Positions 16,803 to 22,241 of a stretch of DNA of 64,000 nucleotides are shown here, one piece after another. Position numbers and translations under genes: made by a program. Position 1 is the first letter of the stretch; every line of letters begins with the position of its first letter. The notes under the pieces are model-generated. The model worked only from the letters and a program-made list of their open reading frames with translations. It was not told the DNA's origin and did no database searches. The DNA comes from Deltaproteobacteria bacterium (lineage in GTDB: Bacteria > Desulfobacterota > Desulfobacteria > Desulfobacterales > SURF-15), in assembly GCA_019309565.1 (NCBI GenBank), contig JAFDFZ010000004.1, forward strand, positions 1-64,000. Reading direction: 5' to 3'.

Positions 16803-19800
16803 TTATCCTGAGGTCGCCCTGAGTCGTTTAATACGACCCTTGGCAAAATCATATTCATGCCAGGTATCCATAAATGATTCCATGGCCGCTCGATAATACT
16901 CTATTGCCTTTTTCTTATCTTTTAAGCCCTCGGCCCAAAACCCCAGTGCCGCATAAAGCGTAACGATATTTTCCGGTATGTTGCCTGCTTCTTTTTTAAG
17001 AGATTCAACGGTTCTTTTCCCCATGAGATTCTCGGCGATGGAACGGTACCAGGGATCTCGGGTTCGATGAAAAAAGTTTTTTAAGCTGGAATCCGCCTCT
17101 TCCTTTTTTCCCATACGGTGAAGGATCTCGGCCTCAAGAAGGCCCACACTCAATTGCCTTGCATTTTGGCGGCCACTTTTTTTAAGAAAAGCTCTTACGT
17201 ACCCAAGGGCCTTATTCCAATCTTCCTCTATGCTGCTATAAAAAGCCAAACCCACAAACGCCTCTCCATTGTCAGGAAAATATTCCAGCATTTTTTCGAA
17301 AACTTTTCGTTTCTGTTCTGTGCGAACGTTCGTTCCTAACAGTTGATCTTTTAACTGAGATAGTTTCGAGTGCTGATCTTTTTTTTTCGGTAGGGCATCG
17401 ATGATGGATTGCTGAAATGCTTCGATCTCGCTTTGATATGCTTCCCATCGTTCTTTCATCTGTAAGGAAGAAAGCTTTTCGCGTTGTACTTGTTCAAGCT
17501 GGGCTCTTGCAAGAAAAAATTCCCAGGACGATGAACTTGCGGCGATAAGGGCCTCTTTAAGCACCGCTTCGGCTTCATCCAGTTCACCCTTCTTTACATG
17601 GGTCAATCCTACAACATAGTTTATCCAGCTCTTTTCAAAGGCCGTATCCCAGGCTTTCAGAGCCGATTCTGCATCAACCGCCCCCTCCAGCACGCGAGCC
17701 AGATAACCCTGAAATTCTGCAGGAGATCTCCAGTCCAATGCCACCAGACCGTTCCGGTAAGGGCTTTGCGAGGCTGGGCCGTTAAGCCAATCGAGGATAA
17801 ACAACATCAAACGGGCAATGCTGTTTTCAGAGTCCATGGAAAGAGATTGCTCAAAAAACTTCTTGCCACCCGGCTGATCGCCTGCACAAAAGTGCATTAT
17901 GCCTGCAGCCATAACCAGGTGCGGATCGGAACTCGTCTTAAGTTCCTTATCGGCAGCCGCCATCGCTTCGGCCCAGCGAGCATCGGTTGCGGGTTTAAAA
18001 ATCCTCTCAAGTTTTTCTTCAACGGAAAGATCAAGCACACCGTTCCATTTAAGGTTGCCTGCCTTAAGGTCTTTTAAAAAATCAATGGGTGTATTGATGG
18101 GAAGCACCATTCCCATATCCCACAGCGGGGTTACCATCGGCAGGAATCCCGGTGCCCGATCCGTTGCAACCCCTGAAACGATGCCGATCACTTTACCGCT
18201 GAGATCAATCATCGGTCCTCCGCTGTTCCCGCCGTAAATGGAAGCATCAATCTGAATCATATTACCAAAAGTGCGGCGAACATGCCCTCTTGCGACACTC
18301 ACGTTAACCCGGGCTTCCTGGGCTCGACTGCCAAGCGGGAAACCCAGAGCGATAATGGGAGAGAGCTTCGGCACTTTAAGCACATCAAGTTTGTCTTCCA
18401 GCGGAAGCGGCTTTAAGCCTTTGGGTATTTTATCGATCTTAAGCACCGCAAAATCATCTTTTAGAGGAGAAGAAACAAGCTGTCGGGTTTGCACGGGCGG
18501 TTTGGCCACACCGGCAATCGAAAGCTTTGGCTCACCATCGGTTCGAAAAGCCGATTCCAGGAAATACATATCTGCCAGGTCCGGGCTGTCCATGAATCCT
18601 GCTGAACGGTTGAATGCCCTGGCACCGTCAAACCATAGAAACAAGCGGTAACCGAATCGAAGCGAGCGGCCGGTGGATTTAGACTGCATTACAATTGCCT
18701 GCAGGTTACGGTCTTCCAGCCACGGGCATGCCACGTGGCGATTTGTCATCAAATATCCCTGTTCGTCCACCAGAAACGCGGTTCCTTCCGAACGATTCCG
18801 GTATACGTATGCATCGCCTTGTTTGAGCCAGTAATCAACCAGCAGGAAAGCGACGGAAGGTGCAAATTCGTTGGCATATTCCTCAAGGATAACGGCGTTG
18901 TCTTTTTTTCGAGTGGTTTGATTATATACGGCAACACCCACGCTTATTATTAAAACAACAACCACTGCCAGCAGCACCTTCTGCCGTCTTCCAAGCCTTC
19001 TGAGGGCTCTTTCAGACGCCTCGGCCATCTCCACCTGGACCTTCGGTGGTGTTTCAAGTTCAACCTTTGCAATCTTTAAAAGGGAATCTTCCACCTCCTT
19101 CATGGACTTGGGTCTAAGTAGCGGATCATTGGCCAGCATGGTCTTAAATAAAACCTTTGCATCATCTGTTAGGGGCAGTTCATCTACTTTCACAAGATAA
19201 TCGGTTATATTATAATCTGCGGTCAGCAGTTCGATGAACACCTTGCCGAGCGACCAGATATCACTTCGCAAATCCAGTGGCCGGTTATGGATGATATCCG
19301 GATGGGTATCCAGCAGGTGTTTGAGCAACGGGCCGGGACGATCCAGCTTTGGGTCGAAAAACCGAGAAAACTTGTAGTCAATCTTAACATCAAGTTTCCC
19401 GTTTTCGCCTTCAATCAGAATGATGTCGTCCAGTATGAGATGGGGGATGATGTGTCCGAAATCATGCAGCGTATGAAGGATGGATGCTATCTTTGCAAAT
19501 AGGGAAAAGGCGAACTGGTGGTCCTTCAACCGTCCGGATCGAATCAGCTCACCCCAGTTCAACACATCGATCCATTCACTTATTCTGTACCACAGGCCGT
19601 CCTGTGAGCGCCGGATGGCATAGTGCTGAACAAATCCTTTTGCAGGCAGTTTCTTAAGCTCTTCAAGCTCTCGCCTAAGCCGTGCCGCCACCTGATCATC
19701 CACCCCTGAGCGGGGTGTAAAAAGCCGTATCATTACCTTTTCGTTTGTGCGCTGTCGAATTGCCTTGCAAAGAAAGCTGGCATAGCCTTCGTGAATGACC

Positions 19801-19916
19801 GTGTCAATCTTGTAATCATCGATACGTTTTCTGCCCTCACCCACTTCGTTACCGCAGGCAGGACATACCGTAATCACCTCGGCCAAGGATTGGCCGCATT
19901 TTTGACAAAGCTTCAT
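16803..19916 (-). CDS. zinc-ribbon / protein-kinase-like (pseudokinase) / TM / trypsin-like protease / TPR multidomain protein
   Basis: CQKCGQ..CPACG; kinase fold with degraded catalytic motifs; TM KVLLAVVVVLIISVGVAVY; protease triad TNRHV, DDFAVLKID, GGNSGGP; C-terminal helical repeats. Confidence 0.85.
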   Translation of the reverse strand: MKLCQKCGQSLAEVITVCPACGNEVGEGRKRIDDYKIDTVIHEGYASFLCKAIRQRTNEKVMIRLFTPRSGVDDQVAARLRRELEELKKLPAKGFVQHYAIRRSQDGLWYRISEWIDVLNWGELIRSGRLKDHQFAFSLFAKIASILHTLHDFGHIIPHLILDDIILIEGENGKLDVKIDYKFSRFFDPKLDRPGPLLKHLLDTHPDIIHNRPLDLRSDIWSLGKVFIELLTADYNITDYLVKVDELPLTDDAKVLFKTMLANDPLLRPKSMKEVEDSLLKIAKVELETPPKVQVEMAEASERALRRLGRRQKVLLAVVVVLIISVGVAVYNQTTRKKDNAVILEEYANEFAPSVAFLLVDYWLKQGDAYVYRNRSEGTAFLVDEQGYLMTNRHVACPWLEDRNLQAIVMQSKSTGRSLRFGYRLFLWFDGARAFNRSAGFMDSPDLADMYFLESAFRTDGEPKLSIAGVAKPPVQTRQLVSSPLKDDFAVLKIDKIPKGLKPLPLEDKLDVLKVPKLSPIIALGFPLGSRAQEARVNVSVARGHVRRTFGNMIQIDASIYGGNSGGPMIDLSGKVIGIVSGVATDRAPGFLPMVTPLWDMGMVLPINTPIDFLKDLKAGNLKWNGVLDLSVEEKLERIFKPATDARWAEAMAAADKELKTSSDPHLVMAAGIMHFCAGDQPGGKKFFEQSLSMDSENSIARLMLFILDWLNGPASQSPYRNGLVALDWRSPAEFQGYLARVLEGAVDAESALKAWDTAFEKSWINYVVGLTHVKKGELDEAEAVLKEALIAASSSSWEFFLARAQLEQVQREKLSSLQMKERWEAYQSEIEAFQQSIIDALPKKKDQHSKLSQLKDQLLGTNVRTEQKRKVFEKMLEYFPDNGEAFVGLAFYSSIEEDWNKALGYVRAFLKKSGRQNARQLSVGLLEAEILHRMGKKEEADSSLKNFFHRTRDPWYRSIAENLMGKRTVESLKKEAGNIPENIVTLYAALGFWAEGLKDKKKAIEYYRAAMESFMDTWHEYDFAKGRIKRLRATSG

Positions 19917-20082: not shown

Positions 20083-20605
20083 CTATGAATATAAATGACA
20101 GGCTATGTGATGATCCCCATCTAGAATTTGCAGCCTCGGCTCTCTCTGATCACACATTTTCAAACGGCTGGGGCATCTGGGATGAAACCGACATCCGGAC
20201 GGCGGATCAATGGGACTGGGCACATCTCCCCTCAGTATTGTACGCTTTTTGGTGACATCCATATCGGTTGTGGGGATTGCAGACAAGAGGGCTTGTGTGT
20301 AAGGATGTCGCTGATTGGAGTACAGATCGCGGTAGGAAGCCATCTCTACGATCAGCCCCAGGTACATAACGGCAATGCGGTCGCAAAGATATTCCACAAC
20401 CGCCAGATCATGTGAAATGATGATGTAAGAAAGATGAAATTCCTCCTGAAGGTCAATCAACAAATTTATGATCTGTGCCTGGATGGAGACATCCAGCGCG
20501 GATACCGGTTCATCCCCGATTATTACTTTCGGGTTTAAAGACAGGGCCCTTGCGATTCCTATCCTCTGGCGCTGACCACCACTGAACTGGTGGGGATACC
20601 GTTCC
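20083..20605 (-). pseudogene. truncated oligopeptide ABC transporter ATP-binding subunit (OppF/DppF-like)
   Basis: [44 protein letters not shown]...[12 protein letters not shown]...CRFHPRCP. No Walker A; in-frame stop just before the homology begins (~20605). Confidence 0.8.
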
Positions 20606-20636: not shown

Positions 20637-22241
20637 ATGAAAAAACTCGGCTATGTTTTTCTGGCAGTGGTTCTTTTATCAACAACGGCGGGTATTACTA
20701 TGGCGGCGCGCTCCGGGGGAACCCTTAATTTCATGGCGCCTTACGGCGGTGACTTGTTTGGTCTTGATCCCCATAAATCAACCCGTGTCCAGGACTTTCT
20801 GGTTTCCATGAACATTCACCGAAGCCTTTATAAGTGGAACCCAACCAGGAATGAGCCTGTCTTGGATCTGGCGGAAAGCGCCAAGGTATCCGATGACGGC
20901 CTGGTTTACACTTACAGGCTAAGACCGAGTATCAAGTTTCACAACGGGCGTAAAATGACGGTCGATGATATCATCTGGTCTTACAACCGGATTGCTTCGA
21001 TGAAACCTGCCTCCCCCAATGTCCAATACATCAGGCCGATCGAGGGCGTTGAGGCCGTGGAGAAAGGCAGGGCAAAAACCATCGCTGGTTTGAAAAAAAT
21101 TGACGATTTAACCCTCGAGGTAACCCTGGAAAACCCCGTTGACATCAAGCATTTCCTACGCTATCCGGGAACGGCTATCCTGCCTAAAGAAGAAATTGAA
21201 AGGCTGGGAGACAAATTCACAACCAATCCCGTTGGCTGTGGACCCTTCAGGTTCGTCAAATGGGTGAGAGGTTCTGAGGTAGTCATTGATAAGTTTAAAG
21301 ATTTTTACCTTGATGGGCGCCCCTATTTAGACAAGGTTGTCTACAAAATCATGGGCGAGGCGGCGCCTAGAGATCTTGCTTTTAAGGCAAAAGAACTAGA
21401 CGCTACGATCGTTGGTGCGGTAAACTATCCTGAGTACAAAGCCAACCCGATCATTTCCAAGAACATGATCGAAGTAGTGGAGTTGTTCACGCGTCACATC
21501 GGAATGAATCCCCAGTTCAAGCCTTTCAGCGATAAACGGGTGCGCCAAGCCGTAAACTATGCTATTCCGGCAGACTTGATCATTGAAAAGGTCTTAAAGG
21601 GCAAAGCTTACCCCTGCCAGGGCTGGCTGCCGCCTCCGTTATGGGGTGAAGGGCCCAAGCCGAAAAAATACGAATATAACCCTGAAAAGGCAAAACAACT
21701 GATGAAGGAAGCCGGCTATGAAAAAGGGTTCGTCGTTGAACAGGCCATTGGAACTGCTAACAAGTCCTGGGGGTCAGGTATCTATGAAGCAGCCATGCCC
21801 TATCTGAAAAAAATCGGCATAACTTTGAAAATCCAGCAAATGGAAGGCGCCGCCATGGCCGAGCGTATCCGCAGAGGAGAATATCAGATGTATATTTGGT
21901 CAATCGGGTCAGGTTCCGATCCGCAAGTGGCGCTTGATCGCTGGAAATCGAACAATCCCCAGGCAGCAGGAAACTATTTTCTGTACAACAATCCTGAATT
22001 TGACAGATTATTGGATCTGGCAGCCAAAACCCGCGATAAGAAAAAGAAGATGGAATACATCATGAAGGCAAACACCATCTTCACAGAAGATGCGCCAGTC
22101 TGGTTCTTCAATTACAACAAGGCGGTCATGGCACATCATCCCTGGGTTCACGGCCTGGCACCAGTGGCCATCGAGATGATGTACCAGGACCTGACCAATG
22201 TCTGGATTGATGAAACATCGCCCAGGGCCAATGTGAAGTAA
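20637..22241 (+). CDS. peptide ABC transporter substrate-binding protein (family 5)
   Basis: Signal peptide; SGGTLNFMAPYGGDLFGLDPHKS, FHNGRKMTVDDIIWSYNR; AAGGAGG RBS. Confidence 0.9.
   Translation: MKKLGYVFLAVVLLSTTAGITMAARSGGTLNFMAPYGGDLFGLDPHKSTRVQDFLVSMNIHRSLYKWNPTRNEPVLDLAESAKVSDDGLVYTYRLRPSIKFHNGRKMTVDDIIWSYNRIASMKPASPNVQYIRPIEGVEAVEKGRAKTIAGLKKIDDLTLEVTLENPVDIKHFLRYPGTAILPKEEIERLGDKFTTNPVGCGPFRFVKWVRGSEVVIDKFKDFYLDGRPYLDKVVYKIMGEAAPRDLAFKAKELDATIVGAVNYPEYKANPIISKNMIEVVELFTRHIGMNPQFKPFSDKRVRQAVNYAIPADLIIEKVLKGKAYPCQGWLPPPLWGEGPKPKKYEYNPEKAKQLMKEAGYEKGFVVEQAIGTANKSWGSGIYEAAMPYLKKIGITLKIQQMEGAAMAERIRRGEYQMYIWSIGSGSDPQVALDRWKSNNPQAAGNYFLYNNPEFDRLLDLAAKTRDKKKKMEYIMKANTIFTEDAPVWFFNYNKAVMAHHPWVHGLAPVAIEMMYQDLTNVWIDETSPRANVK

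Follow-up and report, generated by a model that had tools for sequence, protein, structure and literature searches.

The window, by which we mean the whole 64,000-nucleotide stretch of DNA that was analysed, encodes a 1037-residue protein in which a zinc ribbon and a kinase-like domain devoid of key catalytic residues are joined, through a single predicted transmembrane helix, to a trypsin-like serine protease with an intact catalytic triad and to a C-terminal region of TPR-like repeats. The residue counts given below refer to 52 full-length members of this family, which are 28-57% identical to the window protein and include two most divergent ones (28-31%) from the genomes G326 and G229. An earlier sequence-only reading had placed the open reading frame at 16803-19916, which proved exact, and had proposed the same order of domains, which was borne out by Pfam and profile matches. 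Its central claim, of a dead kinase and a live protease connected through the membrane, is supported by the 52-member alignment and by the charge bias around the helix. The gene and its features are:

16803..19916, minus strand: whole gene, 1037 aa plus stop; start and end agree with homologues
19842..19916, minus strand: zinc ribbon, residues 1-25 (C4, C7, C18, C21); Pfam Zn_Ribbon_1, E 0.003 (residues 4-24)
19062..19829, minus strand: pseudokinase domain, residues 30-285; matches to Pfam Pkinase and, by profile, to solved kinases
19725..19727, minus strand: Arg64 replacing the VAIK (beta3) Lys; Arg in 52/52
19425..19448, minus strand: degenerate catalytic loop IPHLILDD (residues 157-164) versus HRDxKxxN; placed by PknB/ULK3 profile alignment
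19371..19379, minus strand: DYK (residues 180-182) replacing DFG; Asp position D in 43/52 and N in 9/52, K182 in 52/52
18921..18977, minus strand: single predicted transmembrane helix, residues 314-332, N-in/C-out; hydropathy 2.7, positive-inside bias in 48/52
18042..18881, minus strand: S1/HtrA-like serine protease, residues 346-625; Pfam Trypsin_2 at residues 378-579 (E 2.5e-18), HtrA/Deg protease profile matches (1.4e-17)
18735..18737, minus strand: catalytic His394; 52/52
18453..18455, minus strand: catalytic Asp488; 52/52
18222..18224, minus strand: catalytic Ser565 in GNSGGP; 52/52
16806..17999, minus strand: C-terminal degenerate-TPR helical repeats, residues 640-1037; TPR matches in the window protein and homologues

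The annotated ATG is the true start, as the Met and Cys4 are in register across the 52 aligned homologues, and all four zinc-ribbon cysteines are invariant. The TPR region of the window protein was matched by Pfam at residues 770-806 and 987-1013, and profile searches returned weak matches to designed TPRs. When Pfam was run on a 12-member set, Pkinase and Trypsin_2 were each found in 12/12 proteins, and TPR_2 and Zn_ribbon_3 each in 10/12. Around the helix, the Lys and Arg content was 4.6 before versus 2.25 after it, a bias present in 48 of the 52 proteins, and from it a cytosolic kinase-like domain and a periplasmic protease are predicted. The source genome was found to contain no paralogue, its other matches being ordinary HtrA-type proteases that align to residues 479-608 only.

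The kinase-like domain and its catalytic residues

In the window protein, the Pfam Pkinase model matched residues 36-237 with an E-value of 2.6e-7, slightly below the gathering score. A profile built from 18 zinc ribbon-kinase domains matched the solved kinases ULK3 (2.3e-16), SIK3 (1.8e-12) and PknB (1.4e-11), and by these matches the domain can be assigned to the protein kinase fold. A single-sequence AlphaFold model of residues 1-303 reached a pLDDT of 37 and was discarded. Measured against active Ser/Thr kinases (PF00069), the fold is present, whereas the VAIK Lys, the HRD Asp and the catalytic-loop Asn are all missing. Within the loop I157-P-H159-L-I161-L-D-D164, His159 occupies the position of the HRD Asp, Ile161 that of the Lys and Asp164 that of the Asn. 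Throughout the family, the first of these positions holds His, Tyr, Gly or Arg and in no case Asp (0/52), the second is Ile in most members and the third is Asp in all, giving the consensus I/M-P-H/Y-L-I-L-D/N-D. The Gly of DFG is invariably replaced by Lys, the motif reading NYK in nine members, and the alpha-C Glu (E83) is kept in 52/52. R64, E83, P158, D164 and K182 are thus invariant residues of the active cleft. Judged from these residues, phosphotransfer of the canonical kind by this family is very unlikely. The domain may nevertheless be able to bind a nucleotide, since the alpha-C Glu is present in every member and the DFG Asp in most.

Much of this had been noticed in the sequence-only reading. 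The exchange of the VAIK Lys for Arg and the retention of DIWSLG were both correct, as was the intact protease triad read in TNRHV, DDFAVL and GNSGGP. The loss of HRDxKxxN likewise stood, but the replacement PHLILDDI was one residue out of register. DYK was rightly seen in place of DFG, although its Asp is retained, and the description of the kinase motifs as uniformly lost was too strong, as it applies to the Lys, the HRD Asp and the Asn and not to the DFG Asp or the alpha-C Glu. An alignment of homologues had been named as the test that could overturn this reading; it contained no protein with an intact Lys or HRD Asp in register (0/52), and the triad was complete in 52/52.

Mean pairwise identity is 60% in the pseudokinase, 58% in the protease, 39% in the TPR region and 26% in the linker and transmembrane segment, making the pseudokinase the most conserved large domain and the TPR region the least conserved folded part. 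In the close pairs listed, the Ka/Ks of the pseudokinase was 0.03-0.20, similar to that of the protease. We therefore dropped the idea of a decaying kinase and conclude that the domain has been maintained under purifying selection as a non-kinase. No active-kinase ancestor of like layout was detected among 96 relatives, where the kinase profile retrieved nothing but family members at E<=1e-12, and the frames of the six nearest other kinases in the order lacked a GxSGG protease motif.

Distribution, inheritance and genomic context

In the order to which the window belongs, 78 of 390 genomes gave a profile match to the family at E<=1e-30, and a set of 96 genomes of that order contained 11 full-length co-linear homologues with 48-55% identity. 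With this spread and the 52 full-length members aligned, the alternative that the window gene is a single divergent copy fails. When 395 genomes were drawn from across the phylum, some of them from the order, only three genomes outside the order proved to have the family. The dsrA cut-off was passed by 26/30 genomes of the order, which is thus very probably an order of sulfate reducers such as Desulfobacterales. According to the tree, the gene has mostly been passed on vertically within taxonomic families, with a few transfers, and no homologue was found in the plasmids, phages and viral contigs searched. A search of genome contigs with the single protein returned solely an unrelated cyanobacterial kinase.

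The complete genome G245 carries a lone zinc ribbon-pseudokinase of 291 aa (L076:3197-4069) that ends just before the transmembrane helix, and a protease/TPR half was not found in this genome. This lone half reflects either a natural separation of domains or a recent gene truncation, and it means that pseudokinase and protease need not be coupled in every case. In G025, the gene survives as a decayed copy interrupted by stops and gaps (L048:11391-12440), which indicates that one lineage has lost it. The split gene in G065 adjoins runs of N and was treated as an assembly artefact.

In the window, the gene is surrounded by DHDPS-like, creatininase, TRAP and oligopeptide-ABC genes. At 20083-20605 on the minus strand lies the surviving C-terminal end of an oligopeptide ABC ATPase (oligo_HPY, E 1.1e-18), whose ABC signature is legible by eye upstream of the listed open reading frame and which breaks off about 30 bases before a divergent SBP_bac_5 gene at 20637; this looks like a rearrangement or truncation. 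Upon comparison of 32 loci, recurring neighbours were mostly limited to close relatives, mainly of one taxonomic family, and were convergent to the gene; one such neighbour in G245 resembles the GTPase Der on inspection of its sequence. Among the main-branch loci examined, no conserved neighbour pointed to a pathway. Genes for TIR, STAND or SLOG proteins were absent around the window gene, and no such neighbour was shared at the other main-branch loci. Matches to the defence-family HMMs PD-T4-6, MAD6 and RT-Protease were set aside as weak, local and due to generic kinase or trypsin domains.

The two divergent homologues in G326 and G229 have a different context. Each lies a few genes away from a RelA/SpoT-SLOG-RyR protein (63% identity between the two) and near TIR-TPR, TIR-WD40 or Ank-TIR genes, and in G326 only it adjoins a DUF4062-nSTAND1-WD40 gene, the DUF4062 part being recognised by eye. 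The RelA-SLOG-RyR protein has relatives at E<=1e-60 in 7/390 genomes of the order; G326 and G229 carry the closest two, and at least some of the others adjoin apparent NUDIX and DUF4062/STAND genes, judged by eye from N-termini. The RelA/SpoT-TPR-SLOG(LSDAT)-RyR proteins themselves, 861-950 aa long and encoded near TIR genes at L129:1993-4575 and L128:13630-16479, possibly represent an alarmone- or nucleotide-based defence module. As this immune-like context is confined to two loci, it is too rare to be extended to the window gene.

Relation to known systems and proposed mechanism

HtrA/Deg proteases are built on a trimer-based oligomer and carry one or more C-terminal PDZ domains, and their membrane-tethered forms, such as DegS, are regulated. 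Like these, the present protein has one N-terminal membrane anchor, a predicted S1 protease fold, the His/Asp/Ser triad and GNSGGP. It differs in that a large cytosolic zinc ribbon-pseudokinase precedes the anchor and in that the PDZ domain, for which there was no Pfam match, is replaced by the TPR-like region. The spacing within the triad is nearly constant, with 77 residues between Asp and Ser in 50/52 members and 94 between His and Asp in 47/52, in contrast to about 30 for the latter pair in DegP. With its triad intact in all aligned members, the protease is seemingly active.

A 2025 review of bacterial pseudokinases distinguishes seven families, namely ActPs1-3, GLW, CP1, DYD and DLHK (PMC12599244). 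As in these families, canonical kinase motifs are lost here, yet the combination of a beta3 Arg, an alpha-C Glu, IPHxIxDD and DYK is described for none of them (PMC12599244). GLW proteins have GLW at HRD and Leu or Trp at the beta3 Lys, where our family has IPH/MPY variants and Arg. ActPs2 shares the beta3 Arg (R64, 52/52) but combines it with an Asn at the HRD Asp, a DFG deletion and a large activation-loop insertion, in contrast to His/Tyr, DYK/NYK and no insertion here. DYD also shares the Arg, but lacks the alpha-C Glu that is kept in our family and has DYD instead of DYK/NYK. On its motifs, the protein thus fits none of the reviewed families whose motifs allow comparison, namely GLW, ActPs2 and DYD. 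Bacterial pseudokinases with a transmembrane segment, MviN (ActPs3) and EssB/YukC, serve as scaffolds (PMC12599244); they resemble our protein in attaching a cytosolic pseudokinase to the membrane, but have no attached protease and bear other motifs (VALT/Lsidhpsr in MviN, LDMR/Ytfvlapd in EssB). Kaur et al. (2020) reported that kinase domains are mostly disrupted in MoxR-vWA conflict systems and counted trypsin-like peptidases among the common effectors (PMC7159879). Dead kinase domains and trypsin-like peptidases are features that our family shares with these NTP-dependent conflict systems. The divergent branch, unlike the main one, lies near TIR and SLOG genes, with an nSTAND gene at one of its two loci; a pseudokinase-TM-trypsin-TPR polypeptide is not described in the available part of that account. 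No published account of a pseudokinase-protease fusion was found in the part of the literature covered.

We lean, by a narrow measure, towards a model in which the non-catalytic cytosolic pseudokinase regulates the tethered periplasmic protease. Since the kinase is inactivated and the protease preserved in dozens of relatives, the dead kinase is probably a switch or a docking site. The protein would be a type-II (N-in/C-out), periplasm-facing S1/HtrA-like protease of the inner membrane, its cytosolic module being the zinc ribbon-pseudokinase and its TPR-like region taking the place of the PDZ domains of HtrA. As a binding module that does not phosphorylate proteins, the pseudokinase may engage a partner in the cytosol, an active kinase or phosphatase, or a ligand resembling a nucleotide. 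Such binding would lead to an oligomeric or conformational change across the single helix and turn periplasmic proteolysis on or off, and the TPR region would recruit substrate or hold the assembly together. It is the activity of the protease, its coupling across the membrane and the direction thereof, the ligand and the substrate that we infer, and the cytosolic sensing and signal direction put forward in the sequence-only reading are of the same kind. A fuller version seems unlikely to hold as a whole, namely a so far undescribed family of one-polypeptide receptors in which a cytosolic signal, via the dead kinase, allosterically switches on the periplasmic protease, its divergent branch being linked to immune islands of the TIR/STAND/RelA-SLOG-RyR kind.

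Conceivably, the protein could instead be a constitutive, DegS/DegP-like quality-control protease of the envelope, its zinc ribbon-pseudokinase serving anchorage, stability or localisation and no signalling. The HtrA-like protease and, in the main branch, the mostly vertical inheritance of a gene that stands alone, with no regulatory genes next to it, would suit this explanation, but we consider it unlikely: the pseudokinase is as conserved and constrained as the protease, its invariant cleft residues exceed the needs of a passive anchor, and the true linker and anchor region is the part that has diverged. Less probable again is a conflict or immune effector against phage or stress, in which a TIR/STAND or alarmone-nucleotide signal would reach envelope proteolysis via the pseudokinase. 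The neighbourhoods in G326 and G229 argue for it, as do the rarity of the RelA-SLOG-RyR relatives found there and the inactive kinases and trypsin-like effectors described, separately, for NTP-dependent conflict systems (PMC7159879); such a context is, however, restricted to the two divergent genomes, and the main branch lacks it, is mostly vertical and has no plasmid or phage homologue. Very improbable, finally, is a kinase fold that has taken on a different ATP-dependent reaction, such as the AMPylation by SelO or the glutamylation by SidJ. A metal or nucleotide could be bound by the frequent DFG Asp, the alpha-C Glu and the Asp that stands in for the catalytic-loop Asn, but the beta3 Arg, the Ile found mostly at the catalytic-loop Lys and the Lys at the DFG Gly speak against catalysis of this kind, the more so as the beta3 Lys is still present in both SelO and SidJ (VAIK column, Table 1, PMC12599244).

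A function has so far been assigned to few bacterial pseudokinases. The review cited above (PMC12599244) makes no mention of trypsin or peptidase domains, or of a peptidase-linked pseudokinase family. In the present family, which is old and has dozens of members, the pseudokinase forms one protein with an enzyme whose output can be measured, and the role of a dead bacterial kinase thereby becomes directly testable.
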